The translations under genes were made by a program, and so were the position numbers. Below are positions 1-26,332 of a DNA stretch of 26,643 nt, one piece after another. This stretch comes from a virus. The notes beneath the pieces are model-generated. The model searched no databases. It saw nothing but the letters and a program-made list of their open reading frames with translations, and was not told the origin of the DNA. How positions within the stretch are numbered: the first letter of the stretch is position 1; every line of letters begins with the position of its first letter. The DNA is taken from positions 1 through 26,643 of IMG/VR virus record IMGVR_UViG_3300025128_000267; one strand, 5' to 3'.

Positions 1-3000
1 GAGCCCAACCTGAACGAAGACCAACTACGACTTTTGATGAACAACCACCACCAATATCTATAGAACAGTATCAACAGAGAAGGCAGAGTGGGGGTGGTGC
101 TGGTCATACAGAAATAGAAGAAATTGTTTCATCTGGACTCTGGAAGAAATTTGGAAGAGGAATTCCAGTAGGAGATGTACCTGACAAGATAGCTAGAGCC
201 ATAAAAGATAGAAACCCGATGTCTGCTGATACATATGTAAAGCTGATGTTTTCTTACTGGGATTCATCTTATGGATTACGGATACTTCAGGATAACTGGG
301 TAAGAGCAAGGCATCCGGGTGGACTATTCAGACCGGGAAGTAAAGAAGATGTTGTTGGTGCATTAATTCTTGCTGCAGGGGCTCCATCAAGAGGAGCTTA
401 CAAGTATACAAACTTTATAAGAAACGACATTATTCCTATTCTTGAGATGGGTGTAAAACAGGCTGATATAGAAAGATATCTTCAATTAAAACACTGGCCT
501 TCTATTCAACAGGGAGCAAGACTTAAAAAAGAAAAACTTCCAGATATTATAGACCCAGTAACAGGAGAAAGAACTTCTTCAGCAAAAATATTAACTTGGG
601 ATGCTCAGTTACGAAAAGACTACTCTAAGGAACAGTATGATGCCATTGTTGAAGGAGCAACAAAAGTTAGGGATGAGTATGCGAATATGCGTACTCGATT
701 ACTTGATGAAGGAATAATATCTCAGCGGTTACATGATGAACTTGCTTCTGCATATCCTTGGTATAACCCTATTGAATATATAGAGTTCCGTCTTGAAAAC
801 AAGACCATGAGAGGCAACAAGGAGATTTCTAGCACTAGGAATCAACAGGTTACATCTCAGGGTATCTATGAGTTTAGTGATAATCCAGAAGTTATGGGAG
901 CATTGCCACCACTTGGTGAAACTATGCTCCGTAAACTGATACAGACTGAGTTGCGTATATCCAGAAACAGGGTAACGAAACAGGTTGTTAGGATGGTTAA
1001 TGAGCAAACTCAGGGTCTTAAACAGGTATCAGGGCCGGGAGTTCGTGCTTCAGATGATAAGTTTGAACGTATTATAAAGAAGAAAGGTCAACCTGAAGAG
1101 AAACGACTACTTCCAGTTCCATACAATGAAAGTATTGATTCTGGATATTTCTCTTACTTTGAGAACGGGGAGCGATACGTATTCGGTGGAGTAGATGGTG
1201 AAGAAATACCAAAGTGGCTTTGGGATTCTGTTAACGGTAGGGCTGGGATGGCTATACGTGGTCAGGGAGAAGTCAACACAATACTTGCAGCGTCCAACAG
1301 ATATTTCCGTGGTGTCTATACAACCTATAACCCACTCTTCTTTGTAAGAAACGCTGTTATAGATATGTACACAGCATTAATACGTGCTGGCATATTACCC
1401 CATACAACCATAGCTAAGATAGTAGAAAGCCTGTACAAGGCTGGTACTGGTGCAGAGAATAGATTACTTGAATTACAACAGGCTGTTGGTGGATATCAGG
1501 CTAGATTCTATGATGTTGATGCTAACTACCGTCAGATAGCAAAAGAACTTTCTGAAGCAGGTCATATAAATAATGTTCATGTTCTTGGAAAGAACGCTTC
1601 CCCAAAAGAACTTGATAAGTTATTAAGGGCTACAGCAATACAGACAGGTCAGGGTATTGGTGGCAAGTTAAAGAGAGCTATACCTGCAACTGGTGAAGCT
1701 ATTGAACAAGCACCACGACTTGCAGTAATGGAAAAGTCTCTTATAAAACTTATTGGTAAAGATGAATATCAACGTCTTATGAAGTTGCCCCGTGAAAAAT
1801 TCCAGAAAGAACTGCTGGATAACTGGACTCCTAAGTATAATGTTAATGATGAGGTTATACCTGACTCACAACCCCGTGGCCCACTTGTAGAGTCTTCTGA
1901 ATTAAGACACGCAGCTGTTAACGGTATAGATTCCACAATTAACTTTGGTCGTGGTGGTGACCAGATACGCAGATGGAACCAGTATGTACTGTTTCTTAAT
2001 GCAGCATTTGAAGGGTTTAAGTTGCCGTTTAGGTCACTTGGAATAGATTTACATCCTGATATAAGACCAGTAGAGAATCCTGTTGCTGATGGCCCACAGT
2101 TTGAATTTGGTACTGATACCTTTGCAGGTCGTGGGCAGACTGGAAGAACACTTGATATAACTGGTGGTCGTAAACAGGCTGCCATGATACTGGGTGGAGC
2201 AACAGTCACATACTGGGGAATACAGACTAACTGGAATAAGCGAGAAAAGTTTAACGGTATCCCTCTTTACTATGATGTACCCCAGTACGTTAGGTATAAC
2301 GCATTGGTATTTATGCTTCCTGCTGAAAGGGATGATAGTGGAGACTATATATTAGACCCACAGACTGGACGGCCTACCCCAAGATACATAGTCCTTCCCC
2401 ATAAGTTACGTGAGTGGAACTGGTTTATGCAGTCGGCAACTCTTCTTGATGAAATTACAGATGAAGAAGTACCACTTGATAAATCTAAGTTTGCAGGTGA
2501 GATATGGAAAAGCACCTCTCCAATATCCGACATACCTATACCTGAAATAGTAAATGTCGGAGTGGAACAATATACAGGTATGGACTTCTGGCGTAATGCT
2601 CCTATCGTGGATGAAGAACTGGAGGGTATGGAGTCACAGGAACAGTACGATAGAAATACATCGGAAACTATAAGACGAATCTCAGGAATGATGGGTGATG
2701 CAAACATACCTGAATTTGATATTCCCCTTGGAAGCCCACAAAGACTGGAACATCTATACGAAAGTATTACTGGTGGTACTGGACGAATGGTTACATCCAT
2801 GACTGACTACGGGTTAAGGGCTATGGATGACCTTAGGAAATTAGAAGACCGTCCTATGGAACAGAAGGTAGAAGACTACCGTAACATGGATAGGACTTCA
2901 CGCATTGAGTTCCAGACTTCCCTCTCACCAAAAGAATATGACGAGTTTCAGAAAGAGATACGTATGCCCAGAAAGGAGATTCCGTTCTGGGATGCCATGC

Positions 3001-3986
3001 TTAATTCCTTTTACCCTGAACGGGGTGGCGGATTAAGAGAAACAGGACGCATGGCTACGGAAGATATGTTTCCAAATGTATCAGGTGAGGATGTTGAAAA
3101 GGCAGGGCGTGCCATGAGTAAGGTACGCAGAGAATTACTTGAACAACAGATGAAGTCTGATGACCAACTGCTAAGTTGGATACAACGTGGAGATACTAAT
3201 GTTCTCTCTCCCAGTGAATGGAGAGAAGAAAAGTCTAATAAATGGAAACGGTATGAAGGTGCTGAACTTGCTGTATCCCAGATATACCACCGTTCCATAC
3301 AGGGACAGGATGAAGAAACTAGAGATAGATACTACCAGTCTCTTTATACAGCAGCAGGTAAGATGAGTGATATGAGGGTTGGGATAGACCTGTTACTGGC
3401 TGGTTATTATGCTATTGAACCAGAGTCAAGTGACCCTTCTAATACAGAATGGAACCAGTTCTTTGCAGATAGAGAAGCCTATGTAGAGAATATTCGTATA
3501 TCTTCTGAGGCATCTGGTGATGAATTACATGATGAGTTTGAGCGTAGGTTAAGTGCAAATGATACTAATACAGAAAAGAGCTATGATAACGCAAGGAAGT
3601 ACCTTGCTCCTTACTGGAATATAGGAAGAAACATTGATGACATATGGCCCGGCGGTAGTCAGCATCCACAGTATCAACAGATGGTAGAGAAGTGGAATAG
3701 ATATCTTAATCTTGACAGGGGTAGACAGAGCCAGATGTACGATACTGACAAGCAGATACAGACTCTGGTTAAGATGAGGTCAGATAAAAGAAAGGAACTT
3801 GTAAAGATGGATGCCCAGAGAACTGGTTATCCATATATGGATGAATTACTTGTATTCTGGTATGGAGATTTTTATGAAGGTGCTAGCCTAGAGGCTAAGG
3901 CATTTCACAGGCATTTATACCAGCAAACAAAAGAATTTAGACCCAATAGACCATCCATTCCATCGGTTCCATCATTGACACCTTAG
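1..3986 (+). CDS. Giant LPD38-like polyvalent virion protein, 5' end outside window
   Basis: The frame is open from base 3 with no stop, so 72 residues precede the first in-window ATG at 219; at least 1327 residues are visible and the true start lies upstream. About residues 360-600 (counted from the ATG at 219) resemble the large polyvalent protein associated domain LPD38: an NPLFFVRNAVID segment, then IEQAPRLAVMEK, then NFGRGGDQIRRWNQYVLFLN. Proteins of this type are fused multi-domain products thought to be packaged in the head and injected with the DNA. The position directly before the scaffold and capsid genes fits an internal or ejected virion protein. The C-terminal half is charged and helical and I cannot assign it. 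Further enzymatic domains may lie in the missing N-terminus. The LPD38 call rests on remembered motifs. Confidence 0.75.
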   Translation, partial: AQPERRPTTTFDEQPPPISIEQYQQRRQSGGGAGHTEIEEIVSSGLWKKFGRGIPVGDVPDKIARAIKDRNPMSADTYVKLMFSYWDSSYGLRILQDNWVRARHPGGLFRPGSKEDVVGALILAAGAPSRGAYKYTNFIRNDIIPILEMGVKQADIERYLQLKHWPSIQQGARLKKEKLPDIIDPVTGERTSSAKILTWDAQLRKDYSKEQYDAIVEGATKVRDEYANMRTRLLDEGIISQRLHDELASAYPWYNPIEYIEFRLENKTMRGNKEISSTRNQQVTSQGIYEFSDNPEVMGALPPLGETMLRKLIQTELRISRNRVTKQVVRMVNEQTQGLKQVSGPGVRASDDKFERIIKKKGQPEEKRLLPVPYNESIDSGYFSYFENGERYVFGGVDGEEIPKWLWDSVNGRAGMAIRGQGEVNTILAASNRYFRGVYTTYNPLFFVRNAVIDMYTALIRAGILPHTTIAKIVESLYKAGTGAENRLLELQQAVGGYQARFYDVDANYRQIAKELSEAGHINNVHVLGKNASPKELDKLLRATAIQTGQGIGGKLKRAIPATGEAIEQAPRLAVMEKSLIKLIGKDEYQRLMKLPREKFQKELLDNWTPKYNVNDEVIPDSQPRGPLVESSELRHAAVNGIDSTINFGRGGDQIRRWNQYVLFLNAAFEGFKLPFRSLGIDLHPDIRPVENPVADGPQFEFGTDTFAGRGQTGRTLDITGGRKQAAMILGGATVTYWGIQTNWNKREKFNGIPLYYDVPQYVRYNALVFMLPAERDDSGDYILDPQTGRPTPRYIVLPHKLREWNWFMQSATLLDEITDEEVPLDKSKFAGEIWKSTSPISDIPIPEIVNVGVEQYTGMDFWRNAPIVDEELEGMESQEQYDRNTSETIRRISGMMGDANIPEFDIPLGSPQRLEHLYESITGGTGRMVTSMTDYGLRAMDDLRKLEDRPMEQKVEDYRNMDRTSRIEFQTSLSPKEYDEFQKEIRMPRKEIPFWDAMLNSFYPERGGGLRETGRMATEDMFPNVSGEDVEKAGRAMSKVRRELLEQQMKSDDQLLSWIQRGDTNVLSPSEWREEKSNKWKRYEGAELAVSQIYHRSIQGQDEETRDRYYQSLYTAAGKMSDMRVGIDLLLAGYYAIEPESSDPSNTEWNQFFADREAYVENIRISSEASGDELHDEFERRLSANDTNTEKSYDNARKYLAPYWNIGRNIDDIWPGGSQHPQYQQMVEKWNRYLNLDRGRQSQMYDTDKQIQTLVKMRSDKRKELVKMDAQRTGYPYMDELLVFWYGDFYEGASLEAKAFHRHLYQQTKEFRPNRPSIPSVPSLTP

Positions 3987-4018: not shown

Positions 4019-4831
4019 ATGGTAAATCAGGCAGAGCAACCAGATAACACACAGTCAGCACCACCTACAGATGGAGGGGGTACGACTACTGATATCACTT
4101 CAGAATTTGAAGGGGTTAATACCTTTGATGATACTGATACATCTCCTACAGATATCACTACTACAGAGGAGACTACAGAGACTGTAGGGGAAGTAACTAC
4201 TCCACCACCTTCTTCTGAACCTACTACTGAACCTCCTGTTGTTACAGAACCAGTTGCAAGTACAGAAGAAGTACCGGGTAACAATGAAGAGATAGATACT
4301 CTTCAGAAAAGACTGGAAGCAATAGAGCAACAGAATAACCAGTATCAACAGAATCAGGTACGTGGTCAGTTACAGCAACAGGCTACTCAGTATGCTCAAC
4401 AACTTGAGCAACAGGGATATTTACCAGACCAAGCACAACAGGTAGCTCAACAGTGGATGGCCCAACAGAGTGAGGTTGTTCGTGTTCGTCAGGAACAGGA
4501 ACAATACAATAAATTTGTACAGGGACAGAACAACGCTGCAGAGCACTTTGCAAACAAATATAAATTAGAGTTAAAAGACCTTGCTGAATTACGGAGATAT
4601 GATACTCCCGAAGGCATGGAACAGGCAGCTAAGGGTATGGCATCCATCAGGGATAAAGATGCGGAGATAGCTAAGCTGAGAGCTCAGCTAGTCCCGTCCC
4701 AGAATTTTGCCGATAATCAAAGCACCCCTGCTGCTTCTAATAGCGAAGAAAGATGGCTAGAGCGATACAATGATGGTGATAGGTCGCAAGAAGCCGCTGC
4801 AGCAGCACGAAGGGCTGCTGGTTTAGGATAA
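4019..4831 (+). CDS. Probable capsid scaffolding protein
   Basis: This 270-residue protein sits immediately before the capsid gene, the usual place of a phage scaffold. Residues 1-95 are acidic and rich in Thr, Pro and Glu, so probably disordered. Residues 95-170 are Gln-rich with heptad-like spacing (for example IDTLQKRLEAIEQQNNQ), suggesting a coiled coil. The C-terminus ends in a basic, Ala-rich helix (AAAARRAAGLG), as scaffolds often use to bind the coat protein. GAGGT lies 5-6 bases before the ATG. There is no visible protease motif. The assignment rests on position and composition, because scaffolds are poorly conserved; a minor head protein is the alternative. Confidence 0.7.
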   Translation: MVNQAEQPDNTQSAPPTDGGGTTTDITSEFEGVNTFDDTDTSPTDITTTEETTETVGEVTTPPPSSEPTTEPPVVTEPVASTEEVPGNNEEIDTLQKRLEAIEQQNNQYQQNQVRGQLQQQATQYAQQLEQQGYLPDQAQQVAQQWMAQQSEVVRVRQEQEQYNKFVQGQNNAAEHFANKYKLELKDLAELRRYDTPEGMEQAAKGMASIRDKDAEIAKLRAQLVPSQNFADNQSTPAASNSEERWLERYNDGDRSQEAAAAARRAAGLG

Positions 4832-4860: not shown

Positions 4861-5757
4861 ATGGCACAGACCGCTACAACGGGCAATCTTGCAAATGCCC
4901 AAAGAATAATTATTAGTGCTGCTCGATATACAGAGGAGCATAACGCCCCGGCTCTGGCACTCATTGAGCAGTTTAAACTGCCTAAGGGAGCCAAGCAGGT
5001 AACCGTTCCAAAGGTTGGACAGATGTCCATGAGTGACCTAGTAGATGGTCAGGACATAATAGACGAGGAAGAGATTGGAATGACCACGGTAGACCTTACG
5101 GCTAGTGAGGTTGGAGCCAAGGTTATTCTGACTGATAAACTCGTCAGGCAGTCTGCTCCCAATGTGTTTTCCATAATAGGAAGACAGCTTGGTGAAGGAA
5201 TGGCACGAAAGAAAGATACAGATGTTATTGCCCTGTATTCCGCTCTTAACGGAGGTGATGACCTCAGTGCGGATGGTAGGTTGATGACTCCTGCTAACGT
5301 TCATGCAATCATTTCTCAGGCTAAAGCCAATAAGTATGGTTCTCAGGTTTATATACTCCACCATCCAAATGCTGTAGCTCAACTTTCTAAAGGTGCTGCC
5401 ACGGTAGCAACTGGAAATGCTGGTGCTCTTGCAGCAGGTATGGGGGAGATTACCAACGGATGGTCTGCTGACTTGCTAGGTAACTTCTATAGTGGACTGC
5501 GACCAATCAATAATGTCGCTATATTTGAAGATGGAAACATTTCCAAAGTATCTGGCGTAGACTCTGGTATCGGAGTTATAGCTGATAAAACAGCTATGGC
5601 TGCTTTGACCAGTGTAGATACTAGAACAGAGCGACAGAGGGATGCTTCCCTCAGGGCCACTGAAGTTGTAATGACTGCTGACTACGGGGTATTTGAACTT
5701 GATGATTCCCGTGGAGCTCCTGTTACATTTGAAATTGATGACATTGCTACTGCCTAG
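4861..5757 (+). CDS. Major capsid protein (HK97-fold type)
   Basis: This 298-residue protein follows the scaffold after 29 bases, with GAGGTG before its ATG. It shows the coat-protein pattern: an N-terminal helix, a segment with KGAKQVTVPKVG, an E-loop-like stretch (MSDLVDGQDIIDEEEIGMTT), the helical spine around LVRQSAPNVFSIIGRQLGEG followed by ALYSALNGG, and an A-domain with YILHHPNAVAQL. The C-terminal part ends in VMTADYGVFELDDSRGAPVT, similar to the final strands of many marine phage coats. No N-terminal prohead-protease cleavage domain is evident, consistent with a separate scaffold. The family is recognised from general pattern and context, not from a search. Confidence 0.85.
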   Translation: MAQTATTGNLANAQRIIISAARYTEEHNAPALALIEQFKLPKGAKQVTVPKVGQMSMSDLVDGQDIIDEEEIGMTTVDLTASEVGAKVILTDKLVRQSAPNVFSIIGRQLGEGMARKKDTDVIALYSALNGGDDLSADGRLMTPANVHAIISQAKANKYGSQVYILHHPNAVAQLSKGAATVATGNAGALAAGMGEITNGWSADLLGNFYSGLRPINNVAIFEDGNISKVSGVDSGIGVIADKTAMAALTSVDTRTERQRDASLRATEVVMTADYGVFELDDSRGAPVTFEIDDIATA

Positions 5758-5769
5758 TAGGAGTTATAT

Positions 5770-6174
5770 ATGGTAGGGATAACTGAACGAAATAAGCAGA
5801 AGTTAGAGTTAGCCAACAGTGGCTTCTCTCTCAGGTACATAGATGAGTGGCAGCCTAAGACAACTTTGTACAGGCATAAGGCTAGTTATAATATTCAGAA
5901 TGAACTCGTTAGAGATGTTGGTACTTCAATAGTAGGAGTGCCGGGTAATCCTGACTATGTACTTAGAAAAGCTAGAATCGGTTTATTCCCTTGGAAGCCA
6001 AATGAATCCTGTGAATGCAAGTGGTGTCAGGAAACTGACTGGGAAGAGAAAGAACCAGAAATGGTTCAAGGTTTCTGTGATGTATGTGGGCTTGAGGTAG
6101 AAGCCCGTAACTCTGCAGGAGTCTCATCCAAGTTAACCTTTCACAAACGGGCAAATCACACGGAAGAGGTATAA
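5770..6174 (+). CDS. Small zinc-finger-like protein after the capsid gene
   Basis: The 134-residue product follows the capsid gene after 12 bases, with TAGGAG before the start. Cys81, Cys83 and Cys86 form a CxCxxC cluster, and Cys103, Cys106, His125 and His130 form a CxxC...HxxxxH pattern like a classical C2H2 finger (GFCDVCGLEVEA then LTFHKRANH). The N-terminal 75 residues resemble no family I know. Gene order suggests a head-associated or head-to-tail joining role, but the fingers could instead bind nucleic acid. The gene ends two bases before the structured leader at 6176. Confidence 0.6.
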   Translation: MVGITERNKQKLELANSGFSLRYIDEWQPKTTLYRHKASYNIQNELVRDVGTSIVGVPGNPDYVLRKARIGLFPWKPNESCECKWCQETDWEEKEPEMVQGFCDVCGLEVEARNSAGVSSKLTFHKRANHTEEV

Positions 6175-6175
6175 T

Positions 6176-6285
6176 AGAGTCCTGAGAGTTGTAACGATTG
6201 ACCGTGGCTCTCAGGATTCTCTAAATAAATAACGGTTGGTCGCAGGGGTAAACCCTGTAATAAGTAACCTTTAAGGAGGTTAGTC
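6176..6285 (+). promoter_or_regulatory. Structured RNA leader with pseudoknot potential
   Basis: Four pairings fill this gap. Stem 1 is 13 bp with one G-U: AGAGTCCTGAGAG (6176-6188) with CTCTCAGGATTCT (6208-6220). Its 19-base loop contains CGATTGACCGT (6195-6205), which can pair over all 11 positions (three wobbles) with ACGGTTGGTCG (6232-6242), giving an H-type pseudoknot. A hairpin CAGGG-gtaaa-CCCTG (6243-6257) directly abuts it. Finally TAACCT (6265-6270) can pair with AGGTTA (6277-6282), covering part of the ribosome site AAGGAGG (6273-6279). No run of U follows stem 1, so it is not a standard terminator. The layout suggests translational control of the gene at 6286. No known riboswitch class was recognised. 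Confidence 0.55.
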
Positions 6286-7008
6286 ATGTCGTTTCCTCAA
6301 ACAATAATGGGTAAATGGGGTTGGGAACAAGTTACTACTACTGCCAAAAAGCATAAGCTGGGAACTATAATGCAGATAGCTGATACTACTTATAGATATG
6401 CTAGTGTAGGTGAAGCCATAATAGCAGGAACATTAGTAGAAGCATCTGTCGTTGAAGCTGATGAAAATGATGACCTTGTAGTTGCTACTACAGGGGCTGT
6501 CGGTGGCACAACTATTGGGATTACCTTTGGTGGTGCTGTAACTAAAGATGAGTATGCTGATGGATTTCTTATTAGCAACGTAGATGCAAGTGACGCACTT
6601 GGATGGCGATACAGAATTAAAGGCAATGCTGCTGGTACTTCTGATGTAGAAGTAACAATAGACCATGAAGATGGCTTTGTTACTCAATGGTTAGCTGGTA
6701 CAGCAAAAGCCGGGGCTTTTAAAAGTCCATACACTTCTTGCTTGATATCTAATACAACTCATCTTGGGCCAGTTGTCGGTGTCACAGTAAGTGATATTGC
6801 CAGCGGAAGCTACGGCTGGGTACAGACTAATGGCCCAGCATTGTGTCTAATACAGGGGACTCCCGGTGTTGGAACAGGACTTATGAGGTCTAACGGTACG
6901 ACTGGGGCAGTAGAATTAGCTGATGGTTCCCTACAACCTGTAGGGGCTATGGGAAGAACTGTTGGTGTTGATGCTCAATACCATGAAGTAATACTAAATA
7001 TCACTTAA
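6286..7008 (+). CDS. Probable capsid decoration or other structural protein
   Basis: The 240-residue protein is rich in Gly, Ala, Thr and Val, with predicted beta strands throughout (for example AVGGTTIGITFGGAVT and HLGPVVGVTVSDIASGSYGW) and no enzyme motif. The composition and the segment VGEAIIAGTLVEASV resemble small phage head decoration proteins that begin with a YASVGEAI/AGTLV-type strand pair. It has the strongest ribosome site in the block (AAGGAGG, 6 bases before ATG), preceded by the structured leader, as expected for an abundant, controlled virion protein. Its stop overlaps the next start (TAATG). A tail tube protein is an alternative. Confidence 0.5.
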   Translation: MSFPQTIMGKWGWEQVTTTAKKHKLGTIMQIADTTYRYASVGEAIIAGTLVEASVVEADENDDLVVATTGAVGGTTIGITFGGAVTKDEYADGFLISNVDASDALGWRYRIKGNAAGTSDVEVTIDHEDGFVTQWLAGTAKAGAFKSPYTSCLISNTTHLGPVVGVTVSDIASGSYGWVQTNGPALCLIQGTPGVGTGLMRSNGTTGAVELADGSLQPVGAMGRTVGVDAQYHEVILNIT

Positions 7009-15321: not shown

Positions 15322-15497
15322 TGGGACTGTTACATACGATACGAACATATAGAAAGTATCAATCGTTTGCCAATGAAGTTGATGACTTGGTATCCACAAT
15401 GTATGAAAGCGTTAAGGATGGAAAGATATCAAAAGATGATAAGTCCATCTGTTTGAAAAAGTACTGGAATCTCCTAAAAGCTATAGAAAAGGCCTAA
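15321..15497 (+). CDS. Small helical protein (58 aa)
   Basis: Read by hand. The ATG is fused to the stop of the tiny membrane peptide (TAATG). The product is helical and charged: MGLLHTIRTYRKYQSFANEV, then a KDGKISKDDKS loop and a C-terminal helix KYWNLLKAIEKA. No known family. It is the last gene before the structured leader at 15498-15647. Confidence 0.55.
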   Translation: MGLLHTIRTYRKYQSFANEVDDLVSTMYESVKDGKISKDDKSICLKKYWNLLKAIEKA

Positions 15498-15647
15498 TAA
15501 CCTACTTATCTCAGGAACAACACTACTCTAGGAGCCCCGTAGAGAGGCGTAAAGAAGTCATATGGTACTATGACATAGGGAAGCCAAAACAAATACGGGT
15601 TTCAAATCACTGTCCCCGTAAATGGCTCATATACTGGAGGTAAATAG
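15498..15647 (+). promoter_or_regulatory. Structured leader with alternative pairings
   Basis: The 150-base gap holds several inverted repeats. GAGCC (15532-15536) can pair with GGCTC (15624-15628), closing the element. Inside are a perfect hairpin GTCATA-tggtac-TATGAC (15557-15574) and a 6-bp stem TACGGG (15594-15599) with CCCGTA (15615-15620). A second CCCGTA at 15536-15541 competes for the same TACGGG, so two exclusive folds are possible. The ribosome site GGAGG (15636-15640) follows the closing stem by 7 bases. I read it as a candidate cis-regulatory RNA for the membrane-protein gene at 15648. It matches no RNA class I know and is not a good tRNA. Confidence 0.45.
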
Positions 15648-17126
15648 ATGATAAAGCAGTTCTTTAAGAAGTGGTTTACTTTTCCCAGTATTAAGTTACC
15701 CCGATTCCACATGGCTTTTCCACGTATTCCTTTTCCCAGTATAAGTATTCCATTTTACAGGATAGGTATAGTGTTAGGAGCTATCAACACTACGTTGTTA
15801 GTGCTTGCTGGTAGCATTGGCCTTGCTGCATCGTTCATTAATCAGTACCAGATTGGTAATGTCATTCACTGGATATCCCCGATACTTCCATTCCGATGGG
15901 AAAATATATTCTGGACAGGGGCATGGGTCAATATAACTGACCAGTTTGTATTCGATACCATCCTTGCTGCACAGGCTAATTTCGTATGGACTATATCTGG
16001 TTCAATTGGCCTGATAGCTCTTGGGTTCGTTATCCATGTAGGTAACTTCAGTGCATGGTGGAGAGGATTCAAAGCTGCACCGATGGCAGTTGTCAGGTCA
16101 CCTGTCAGGGCTTACCAGAGAATAACTATCTGGCGTAACTGGCTTCTTGCCAAGATTGAATACGCCAACAATGAATCCCAGAAATGGAAGACAACATTCA
16201 AGATAATAATGAGTCCGTACTCTCTACTGAGAGCATTGGGCTTCAGTCCCCAGATGGCAATAGGCTTACTGGCTGTAGGTTCTACTGCTGGTGCTGGTGT
16301 GGCAGTCAACGAAACGATACTTGCTGAACGCTCATTTAGTAATGGAGATTCAGGTATTTATTCCGCTCCATCACAACATCCAGACCCTACCCTTGAACAG
16401 ACTATGGCATGGAGACAGGAGAACAGTGGTCTGGGTAAAGAAGATAATACGTTAAGAATTGTTCTTGGTACTACTCCTGTCAGGGAGATTCGCATTGAGA
16501 ATGTAACAGTCGGAACTGTCTACACTGGAGGTGCTATACCTTCATCTGCACATACGTCTGCCGGAGGCACGGCAGCTGCTGCAACAGCGGTATTGATTGG
16601 TGGAAAGGTAGTAGCTGGTGGTACTGACACTGTCCTAGAAATAGGTGAAATGCTAATTGAAAAATCTAGATGTACGTTTATGTATTTTGACAACATAACG
16701 GCTCACACTATCAATGTCATTGGAAATGCTTCAGATGGTCAAAGCATAAACCAGACTCCGGGAACTTCTAGGATGAGAGCAATCGGTGGAGGTCACCATC
16801 AGGCTGAAGCGATGGTCACTTCGGGCGGGTCTTATGACCGCATCCATATTGATGCTCCGACTACCGCAACAAATGGAAAGATTGATAAGCTAGTCCTGAG
16901 CAACATCTATAGTGAAGGCGGCTCCTGTTCATTCGATAAAATGAAGATTGGAACACTAACTATCCAGCTTAACGAAATTGGTGGCGGTGGTAACGCTGGT
17001 GTTTCAGATGGATTTGCCACTAAAGAATTTAAGATTAACCAGAGTGTTACCGCAGCTAACTGGAATGTCAGTGATAATGTTGAGGTACTGATTGGAGCAC
17101 CAACAGTAACCGTGACCAACGAATAG
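15648..17126 (+). CDS. Membrane protein with beta-rich C-terminal domain
   Basis: The 492-residue product has GGAGG 7 bases before its ATG. The N-terminus carries spaced Pro and aromatic residues (FPSIKLPRFHMAFPRIPFPS). Likely membrane segments are about 39-63 (IGIVLGAINTTLLVLAGSIG), 110-131 (WTISGSIGLIALGFVIH) and 203-221 (MAIGLLAVGSTAGAGVAV). The remaining 270 residues are hydrophilic and beta-rich, with parallel-helix-like turns (IRIENVTVGTVYTGG, IDKLVLSNIYSEGG, FDKMKIGTLTIQL). No enzyme motif is visible. It could be a virion protein that inserts in the host membrane at entry, or a membrane-anchored surface or lysis protein. Being downstream of a structured leader suggests controlled expression. 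Confidence 0.55.
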   Translation: MIKQFFKKWFTFPSIKLPRFHMAFPRIPFPSISIPFYRIGIVLGAINTTLLVLAGSIGLAASFINQYQIGNVIHWISPILPFRWENIFWTGAWVNITDQFVFDTILAAQANFVWTISGSIGLIALGFVIHVGNFSAWWRGFKAAPMAVVRSPVRAYQRITIWRNWLLAKIEYANNESQKWKTTFKIIMSPYSLLRALGFSPQMAIGLLAVGSTAGAGVAVNETILAERSFSNGDSGIYSAPSQHPDPTLEQTMAWRQENSGLGKEDNTLRIVLGTTPVREIRIENVTVGTVYTGGAIPSSAHTSAGGTAAAATAVLIGGKVVAGGTDTVLEIGEMLIEKSRCTFMYFDNITAHTINVIGNASDGQSINQTPGTSRMRAIGGGHHQAEAMVTSGGSYDRIHIDAPTTATNGKIDKLVLSNIYSEGGSCSFDKMKIGTLTIQLNEIGGGGNAGVSDGFATKEFKINQSVTAANWNVSDNVEVLIGAPTVTVTNE

Positions 17127-17144: not shown

Positions 17145-17252
17145 ATGGGAGTATCTAATTGGGGTTGCTTGATACAGGGAGCGGTACTTGTAGCAATAAT
17201 AGTAGTTGTTATAGTTGTATTGCTTGTAACAGTAGCGGAGAGAAGTTCATAG
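17145..17252 (+). CDS. Single-TM peptide (35 aa), possible lysis peptide
   Basis: Read by hand. The ATG has AGGTCAGGAG just upstream. The peptide starts MGVSNWGCLIQG and continues with an almost pure Val, Ile and Leu run of about 20 residues, ending AERSS. This is a textbook single membrane span. Its stop is two bases before the nuclease ATG at 17255, so the two are translationally linked. A small holin, or a pinholin-like or spanin-like component, is possible but unproved. The neighbouring two-TM protein at 17689 makes a lysis or membrane-permeability role plausible. Confidence 0.55.
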   Translation: MGVSNWGCLIQGAVLVAIIVVVIVVLLVTVAERSS

Positions 17253-17254
17253 TA

Positions 17255-17692
17255 ATGTTTGAATATAAAGTAAATGTAACAAGAGTGGTTGATGGAGATA
17301 CCGTTGATGCTGATATCGACCTTGGGTTCGATATTATCTACAAGGAACGCATCAGGCTTTTCGGTATAGACACTCCAGAAAGCCGAACTAGGAATAGGAA
17401 AGAGAAGGTACTGGGTCTTGCTAGTAAGGAGCGATTAAAAGAGCTCTGCAAGCAACACAAGGGTTCTCTTATATTACGTACTACTAAAGATGGTAAAGGA
17501 AAATTCGGACGCATACTTGGGTCATTAATACCTGAGGGTAGCGGTATAACTATTAACGATATGTTAGTAGCAGAGGGACACGCCAGACCTTACTTTGGTG
17601 GGAAGAAGGGAGAGGTTGGAGAGTGGGTTGCCGAATGTGATGATAAGTTCTGGCGTTGGACAATGGATGGATACGTGGAGATAACAGAATGA
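17255..17692 (+). CDS. Staphylococcal nuclease-like endonuclease
   Basis: The start is the ATG at 17255; an upstream in-frame TTG at 17159 would add Cys/Ser-rich residues out of frame with the membrane peptide, which is not convincing. The 145-residue product has the SNase hallmark residues: VVDGDTVDADIDLG (Asp13, Asp15), RIRLFGIDTPESR (Arg34, Asp39, Glu42) and KFGRILG (Arg86), matching Arg35, Asp40, Glu43 and Arg87 of the Staphylococcus enzyme. Members are calcium-dependent and cut DNA and RNA. No signal peptide is present, so it probably acts in the cytoplasm or in the virion. Host DNA breakdown for nucleotide reuse, or help at DNA entry, are likely roles. Overlaps the next gene (ATGA). Confidence 0.85.
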   Translation: MFEYKVNVTRVVDGDTVDADIDLGFDIIYKERIRLFGIDTPESRTRNRKEKVLGLASKERLKELCKQHKGSLILRTTKDGKGKFGRILGSLIPEGSGITINDMLVAEGHARPYFGGKKGEVGEWVAECDDKFWRWTMDGYVEITE

Positions 17693-25106: not shown

Positions 25107-25418
25107 TTTATTTCCTTGTATCTTTTTAGGTTTAGATATTCTTGTCATTTGTCGTACTGGACAGAGCCCTTCATAAATTACTTCTGGTATTTCTGTTGGA
25201 TTAGGTTGGTACAGGTTCAGGTATCGGGTCGCATCCACATCTTCCTCAAGGTATACATAGGTTTCATCCTGATAGCTGTGGGTTGATGCTTGGAACCCAT
25301 TCAATTCATACTCTCTCTTACTAACCTGTAGCCATGCGTGGCCTATATCTACAATCCATTTGTACGGTAGCTCGTCCCTCTCTCTATCTATTACCTTGTC
25401 ATTGCCTTCATGACTCAT
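24906..25418 (-). CDS. ArdC-partner protein, possible fusion of two modules
   Basis: The 170-residue product has two parts. Residues 1-104 contain DIGHAWLQVSKREYELNGFQ, then THSYQDETYVYLEEDVDATR, a pattern (HxWLxV ... YVYLEEDxD) that I recall from small proteins beside ArdC genes in phages. Residues 105-170 (MAKFTVTVELTGHATIEVEA with DVLEARETVQAQ) match the nearby mini-fold proteins. Met105 has its own ribosome site, AAGGA, so the 3' part may also be made separately. The gene overlaps ArdC by one base (TAATG). A role with antirestriction is inferred from position. Confidence 0.6.
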   Translation of the reverse strand: MSHEGNDKVIDRERDELPYKWIVDIGHAWLQVSKREYELNGFQASTHSYQDETYVYLEEDVDATRYLNLYQPNPTEIPEVIYEGLCPVRQMTRISKPKKIQGNKMAKFTVTVELTGHATIEVEAIDVLEARETVQAQYKMVTPSSDIYSFIEEVMPITVTDADGNEVWSI

Positions 25419-26332
25419 TACTCACCTCCCAGTATGTAACTTGTTGCTTTGTGTGCTTGTGATGATGCACTTACTAATAGTTTTTCGTCATTCCGTAACT
25501 TGCCTATCCAACTTCTAAGGTATGCTTCTGAGTTTTCCCTAGTGTTATCAATTCCTGATTGTCTGCATAGTATTGCTGATACAAACTCGGCTACTAATTC
25601 TTCCTTTGCATACTGACCACTACCAAAGTGGTCAAAGTTTTGTATTCCTTCTCTACCTACTCTTGATTCGTGTCCTGTAGAGTGTCCTTCCTCGTGGAAT
25701 CGTGTTGAGTAGTATTCATTTGGACTATCGAATGTGCTTCTATCGGGAAGATGTATCGTGTCTTCTTTCATCCTGTAGTAGGCACGGTCACCGCCATTGT
25801 GTAACGTGACTGGTTTATTAGGTATCCCATTCAGTATCTTTTCTGCTTCTTCTATAGGTACAAATTCTGTAGCGTTTGGTTTGCTTAGTGGTTCTACATT
25901 CAAACCTTCCCATTGCTCTACGTTAAAGACCTTGTAGTATCTGAATATAGGAAACTTAATTACTTCTTCTTCAAGTTCACCTTCATTTTTCTTACGCTCT
26001 AATATTAGGGGTTTCAGTAGGGTTATTGACTTGTGATATTCGCCATCCTTTAACGTGCTACCGTTTGCCTTGCCTTGTTTGTAGGTAAGCCATCTATAAT
26101 CTTCATACTGGTCACCACCTAATACATCTATCCAGAACGGGTTCATACCCTGATATATATGTCCTGATATAGCGTTTTGATGGGCTCCGAATACACCAGT
26201 CCACGGCTTATGCCACGGGAGTCCTTTGTTTTTCAAAATATTATCAATCATCTGGTCAGTCTGTACCTTAAATACAGATGGTTTGTTGTATTTCTTTTTG
26301 CTTTTTCCCTTACTCCTAGTTGCTGTTACCAT
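25418..26332 (-). CDS. ardC: ArdC-like antirestriction protein with zinc metallopeptidase domain
   Basis: The 304-residue product has the two-part ArdC plan. The N-terminal half (residues 20-140) is the single-stranded DNA binding domain: KPWTGVFGAHQNAISGHIYQ, NPFWIDVLGG, YRWLTYKQGKANG and RYYKVFNVEQ. The C-terminal half is a zincin peptidase: STRFHEEGHSTGHESRVGRE with HEEGH (His213, Glu214, His217), and the downstream YAKEELVAEF, which supplies the third ligand. ArdC proteins protect incoming DNA from host restriction. The N-terminus is basic. Being early in a left-reading block fits expression soon after entry. Tightly coupled to the partner gene downstream. Confidence 0.88.
   Translation of the reverse strand: MVTATRSKGKSKKKYNKPSVFKVQTDQMIDNILKNKGLPWHKPWTGVFGAHQNAISGHIYQGMNPFWIDVLGGDQYEDYRWLTYKQGKANGSTLKDGEYHKSITLLKPLILERKKNEGELEEEVIKFPIFRYYKVFNVEQWEGLNVEPLSKPNATEFVPIEEAEKILNGIPNKPVTLHNGGDRAYYRMKEDTIHLPDRSTFDSPNEYYSTRFHEEGHSTGHESRVGREGIQNFDHFGSGQYAKEELVAEFVSAILCRQSGIDNTRENSEAYLRSWIGKLRNDEKLLVSASSQAHKATSYILGGE

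Follow-up and report, generated by a model that had tools for sequence, protein, structure and literature searches.

Which function is encoded in a 111-nt gap between two head genes of an uncultured phage? The gap lies in a virus record of IMG/VR type, 26,643 bases long and here called the window as a whole, between a gene for a 134-amino-acid (aa) protein and a gene for a 240-aa virion protein (Table 1). It is the one clear non-coding gap among the head genes read, neighbouring genes mostly abutting or overlapping. Elsewhere in the window, a further gap of about 150 nt (15495–15650) precedes a 492-aa open reading frame; this gap shows no significant fold (z −1.3), and nothing in Rfam matches it. 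The window also encodes a very large protein with an LPD38 domain (219–3986, + strand), a staphylococcal-nuclease homologue (17159–17692, + strand) and an anti-restriction-like protein with ArdC-N and zincin domains (25418–26332, − strand).

Table 1 Features of the leader RNA and its neighbouring genes in the window.
Feature	Coordinates	Strand	Basis
Scaffold-like gene	4019–4831		Label from position
Major capsid protein gene, HK97-type, Phage_capsid_4	4861–5757	+	PF25209, E 6.8e-9; PHROG major head protein
Upstream 134-aa gene: conserved N-terminal domain and C-terminal C2H2-type zinc finger (CDVCG...FHKRANH)	5770–6174	+	Sequence
P1 stem, 14 bp, closed by near-invariant U6190·G6206	6176–6189 with 6207–6220	+	Sequence; both-sided changes; tree-aware covariation
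Loop 1, GUAA[C/A], 5′ of the pseudoknot helix	6191–6195	+	Alignments A1 and A5; GUAA invariant
P2 pseudoknot helix, 10 bp, C6195–G6242 optional	6196–6205 with 6232–6241	+	Covariation; P2-free alignment; matched indels
Loop 3, crossing loop, A/U-rich, nearly invariant A beside P2	6221–6231	+	Alignments
P3 hairpin, CAGGG-loop-CCCUG, adjoins P2	6243–6247 with 6253–6257	+	Sequence; fold; variants in relatives
P4 hairpin, AACCU-UUAAGG-AGGUU, with Shine–Dalgarno AAGGAGG (6273–6279)	6266–6270 with 6277–6281	+	Predicted hairpins; compensatory changes
Virion gene, 240 aa, probable capsid decoration or head-fibre-base protein	6286–7008	+	AF2 model; fold matches; position

The gap contains an H-type pseudoknot

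A first-pass annotation of the window had described nested pairing in this gap, and its coordinates all proved correct on the sequence, including the stop codon (TAA, 6172–6174) placed two bases before P1. The 13-bp hairpin that it had drawn (6176–6188 with 6208–6220) is present and extends by U6189·G6207 and U6190·G6206. It had further proposed that the loop of this hairpin pairs downstream at 11 positions. The segment CGATTGACCGT (6195–6205) does pair with ACGGTTGGTCG (6232–6242) at 11 of 11 positions, three of them G·U, but comparative support covers 10 of the 11: the C6195–G6242 pair is not kept, and because 6195 is A in many relatives we assigned this position to loop 1. The third hairpin, P3, directly abuts this helix as had been claimed, and the amount of pairing does exceed chance: the nested fold of the gap has −41.9 kcal/mol, against −25.8 ± 3.7 kcal/mol for shuffled sequences (z −4.3; 0 of 200 shuffles). 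The 3′ strand of P1 starts one nucleotide after the 5′ strand of P2, and the two stems together make up a pseudoknot of the H type, beside which P3 is stacked.

The RNA is present throughout a family of uncultured phages

Searching IMG/VR with the downstream protein and the capsid protein yielded 94 loci, and a comparison of the sequences alone showed that they share the motif and its location and that their P1 sequences vary freely. A covariance model built from P1 and P3 only (R1) matched 74 of 80 capsid-anchored clade-1 loci, once each, in addition to the window; the remaining six contigs end before the site, leaving one copy in 74 of the 74 loci whose contig reaches it. One strong R1 copy was also found in 15 of 16 longer phage records, the sixteenth having been fetched through a chance pattern match. 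A looser pattern scan led to locus L289, whose capsid protein is 49% identical and opened a sister clade; there the RNA was found in 83 of the 86 loci searched, and the other three end too soon. The collection from the two clades comprises 156 distinct leader sequences. The element belongs to a widespread group of uncultured tailed phages.

Outside this group, GTDB genomes and cultured phages yielded no counterpart. A single pattern match in GTDB genomes was rejected as chance, since it lies in GC-rich coding sequence, and pattern-only matches outside the family were rejected because the structure is absent. Searches of INPHARED phages with the leader DNA and the downstream protein as queries found none, and Pelagibacter phages, with capsid proteins 31% identical to that of the window, carry other genes at the site and no RNA. 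Rfam 15 gave no match on the element in the window at E up to 10, or on the element in four relatives at E up to 1, and no published description of the RNA was found in a partial literature collection. The RNA appears to constitute a previously undescribed, strongly covarying family.

Covariation supports the pseudoknot

The first-pass annotation had judged the pseudoknot feasible but not certain, and named compensating base changes as the check. Such changes were found in P1, P2 and P3, and covariation strongly supports the pseudoknot. Among 66 aligned clade-1 sequences, all nine counted pairs of P1 change on both sides, as do five of ten pairs of P2, and 90.9% of cells are paired, against 16–42% in slid controls; structure was one of the grounds on which alignments A1 and A5 were selected, and the percentages paired in them are inflated. 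A tree-aware covariation test (our own script, using a G-test with average-product correction and substitutions re-placed on a FastTree tree) placed eleven structural pairs in the top eleven ranks among all column pairs. The best were 11–37 in P1 (E 5e-6) and 31–58 in P2 (A1; E 7e-4), and the pairs below E 0.05 were four in P1 together with 31–58.

The cleanest test of P2 used loci from protein homology and an alignment model without P2. In this alignment, some loci of which were also in the training set of the model, 95.1% of P2 cells were paired, compared with a mean of 84.3% for shuffles (0 of 500) and 9–44% for slid controls, and swaps included UA/AU (35:56), UG/AU/UA/CG and AU/GC. The 10- and 11-bp length variants of P2 are one-base deletions matched on both strands, and P3 occurs in relatives as CGGG/CCCG, CUGG/CCAG and UAGAGG/CCUCUA. 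The pseudoknot is, with near certainty, real. As far as the alignments tell, P1 is free in sequence yet covarying, and only its pairing matters.

Several loci depart from the common form. The most divergent P2 (GAUCGGACGA / UCGACCGAUC) is that of L358, L362 and L367, where the usually fixed CCG/CGG core is altered and nine of ten pairs are kept. An additional hairpin (GGTTTGGTGTACACCAAACC) lies inside the crossing loop of L214 (5896–5995), and in L002 (1550–1649), a short contig with a possible assembly fault, P1 is disrupted beside a similar inserted hairpin.

Nearly invariant in the alignments are the GUAA of loop 1, the U·G pair that closes P1 and the A ahead of the 3′ strand of P2. A compact pseudoknot with such an invariant loop, a conserved U·G pair and a conserved A beside P2 recalls ligand-binding or catalytic RNAs and could be a riboswitch or self-cleaving ribozyme of a new class. 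We consider this very improbable: there is no Rfam riboswitch or ribozyme match even at relaxed thresholds, no separate internal loop resembles a catalytic core, the RNA has one fixed context before a single virion gene, and it is absent from cellular genomes (GTDB). The preQ1, SAM-II and fluoride riboswitches share the H-type topology in a 5′ leader, but here Rfam gave no match and the gene that follows is structural rather than metabolic. HDV-like/theta and pistol ribozymes are compact pseudoknotted RNAs, some of them in phages; the nested double-pseudoknot topology of the HDV-like class needs a P3 hairpin between the 5′ strand of P2 and the 3′ strand of P1, whereas no such hairpin, and no Rfam match, is found here.

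The RNA is linked to the downstream decoration gene

The 240-aa protein is encoded shortly after the capsid protein gene. Its AF2 model (pLDDT 90) has as nearest PDB folds the base of the phi29 head fibre gp8.5 and capsid chains of Pam3, Sf11, HFTV1 and phiCD508, at E 7e-3 and weaker, and the product is probably a capsid decoration or head-fibre-base protein. A distant homologue follows the capsid region of MW202566, where the gap in front is only 24 nt and there is no RNA before the gene.

One divergent family of downstream genes follows the RNA at every locus examined. The distance from the end of P3 to the AUG is 28.3 ± 1.7 nt in leaders of the P4 class and 19.8 ± 4.7 nt in those without P4, whereas that from the upstream stop codon to the RNA is scattered (SD 9–13 nt). 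Homologues of the upstream 134-aa gene are present at all clade-1 loci. In the sister clade the RNA and the decoration gene stay together despite an unrelated upstream gene; in the member examined this gene encodes a protein of 93 aa that ends in KKKRGRPRKKV, and its stop codon falls in loop 1. The RNA is linked to, and serves, the downstream decoration gene.

A pseudoknot that begins 2 nt after a stop, as in the window, might also be a recoding signal for the upstream gene, causing a frameshift or read-through. This is largely refuted: the stop-to-RNA distance varies, the stop falls within P1 or loop 1 in many relatives, and in-frame stops lie beyond (TAG at 6175, TGA in P2) before the next gene. 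A recoding pseudoknot would sit at a short, constant distance from a slippery site or stop, with the downstream frame open, and neither feature was found. An intrinsic terminator was likewise rejected, as no U-run follows P1, P2 or P3 and a terminator scan lists none here. At L120 the upstream frame runs through P1 and P2 (ending GKEEAVTIDRGSSSSKK and a stop), and the pseudoknot is also coding there; the RNA sequence of L108 is near-identical to that of L120.

A covarying hairpin holds the Shine–Dalgarno sequence

The first-pass annotation had missed a fourth hairpin, P4 (6266–6281). A simple search predicted a hairpin containing the Shine–Dalgarno (SD) sequence in 111 of the 156 distinct leaders, most of one recognisable type, and P4 is absent in roughly 45 of 156. 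Its stem covaries (AACCU/AGGUU, AACCC/GGGUU, AUCCC/GGGAU); at its free positions, 89% are paired, against 76% in shuffles (maximum 83%). The predicted unpaired fraction of the SD is 0.23 with P4 and 0.45 without (p 0.005). An anti-SD switch, in which the 3′ strand of P2 would pair with the AACC of P4, was rejected by inspection, AACC staying constant where the P2 strand varies. All three structures, pseudoknot, P3 and P4, are conserved.

Among clade-1 loci the presence of P4 largely matches that of the C2H2/C2HC zinc finger in the upstream protein, and the RNA could be an operator bound by this protein (5770–6174), coupling decoration synthesis to another head-gene product. In clade 1, after correction by hand, about 58 loci have both finger and P4 and 33 have neither, with about four exceptions (L107, L195, L120, L211). 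The leader type tracks the upstream C-terminus best (Mantel r 0.61), and independent pairs on the capsid tree are concordant in 5–6 cases and discordant in none. However, the sign test after tree control gives p about 0.06, and finger and P4 lie within 150 nt of each other, where block transfer explains the link. Moreover, the core RNA is present in clade-1 members without the finger, and RNA and P4 also occur in the sister clade, where the upstream gene is unrelated. The AF2 model of the 134-aa protein (pLDDT 85) gave insignificant fold matches, with weak C2H2-like ones only. The link between finger and P4 in clade 1 is suggestive only and is weakened by the sister clade; we regard an operator for the zinc-finger protein as improbable.

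A candidate leader for translation of the decoration gene

We lean, with some reserve, towards the reading that the gap encodes a cis-acting mRNA leader controlling translation initiation of the decoration-protein gene, given that the RNA is kept with this gene, that its distance from the AUG is nearly fixed and that the SD is predicted to be less accessible with P4. The P1/P2 pseudoknot with its stacked P3 would form a docking face. The SD lies about 8–17 nt beyond P3 and in most members is enclosed in P4, which would act as a lock on it; the distance to the AUG hardly varies. Probably a trans-acting factor, either a phage protein or the 30S subunit itself, recognises the compact face of P2, loop 1 and P3; this recognition would decide the opening of P4, and the decoration protein would be made in the amount that the capsid needs. 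That the leader works through translation, in which direction it does so and which factor reads it are inferences from these patterns, as is the mode of action, be it a protein-bound operator, a ribosome platform or mRNA processing and stability.

The first-pass annotation had proposed a leader for the gene at 6286, serving either to switch its translation or to bind an autoregulatory protein. Synteny, the tight start-codon spacing and the covarying SD hairpin bear out a leader acting on this gene; the switch and the autoregulatory site are candidate roles. None of P1, P2 and P3 pairs with the ribosome-binding site (RBS), and the sequence therefore shows no direct on/off switch. The RNA core is weakly co-inherited with the decoration protein (Mantel r 0.06–0.15), which, as judged from the sequences, does not favour specific autoregulation by this protein. 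Downstream of the RNA, decoration genes have been swapped separately from the capsid genes (L122/L157, L009/L163, L027/L120, L003/L192), the conserved RNA marking the recombination border; L122 and L157 are 97% identical upstream, 100% in the RNA and 61% downstream. Together, the weak co-inheritance and the swaps behind near-identical RNAs give little support to the decoration protein as the factor.

The absence of P4 in about 45 leaders is a point against translational control, and conservation before a highly expressed gene would also be predicted by a purely mRNA-processing role. In the main rival reading, the decoration mRNA is processed and long-lived, its 5′ end being marked or protected by the pseudoknot and hairpin, and is uncoupled from the upstream capsid mRNA. 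The element sits exactly between cistrons, near the upstream stop; its folds at the boundary are stable, and P1 is free in sequence with pairing alone mattering, all of which would suit such a role. Yet this explanation leaves the tight AUG spacing, the covarying SD hairpin and the invariant GUAA of loop 1 unaccounted for, and in the sister clade the paired stem is down to 4–6 bp, a poor RNase III site. We consider processing or stability rather unlikely, if a serious contender. As for the class of riboregulator, a pseudoknot and SD-hairpin leader that meters decoration-protein synthesis in response to a phage or host factor would be new among phage riboregulators, a pseudoknot serving as translational operator of a gene for a virion structural protein; we offer this assignment tentatively.

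Relation to known leader pseudoknots

In the rpsO operator the pseudoknot includes the RBS and ribosomal protein S15 traps the ribosome, whereas here P1 and P2 lie upstream of the RBS. That pseudoknot is part of a translational operator controlling initiation (PMC3014915). The best functional analogue would be the autogenous gene 32 operator of T4, T2 and RB69, an H-type pseudoknot leader that lies about 40 nt 5′ of the start codon, is conserved across relatives and can overlap the end of the upstream open reading frame (PMC535899, PMC3014915). It combines a pseudoknot of about 28 nt, to which gp32 binds, with a downstream RBS region that lacks structure, is rich in UUAAA and is bound cooperatively by this single-stranded DNA (ssDNA)-binding protein (PMC535899, PMC3014915). 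The leader described here shares a pseudoknot upstream of the RBS, but its downstream gene resembles a capsid decoration or head-fibre-base protein rather than the ssDNA-binding gp32, P3 and P4 occupy the stretch that is an unstructured UUAAA repeat there, and its pseudoknot is larger. Because gene, linker and size differ, the present RNA is not a member of the gene 32 operators. A 2010 review considered that, among viral pseudoknots, the one of T4-type gene 32 was perhaps still alone in serving translational autoregulation (PMC3014915).

The family described here adds a strongly covarying RNA to a very short list of DNA-phage pseudoknot leaders, and places such a leader before a head gene, not a replication gene. 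Its covariance model can be used for annotating these uncultured phages, and the compensatory variants found in nature can serve directly to test structure against sequence. For the question of what fixes the amount of decoration protein relative to capsid protein when one operon encodes both, the RNA offers a direct handle: the leader is a testable candidate for an RNA switch in the building of the virus shell, in which evolution has kept the folding and not the sequence.
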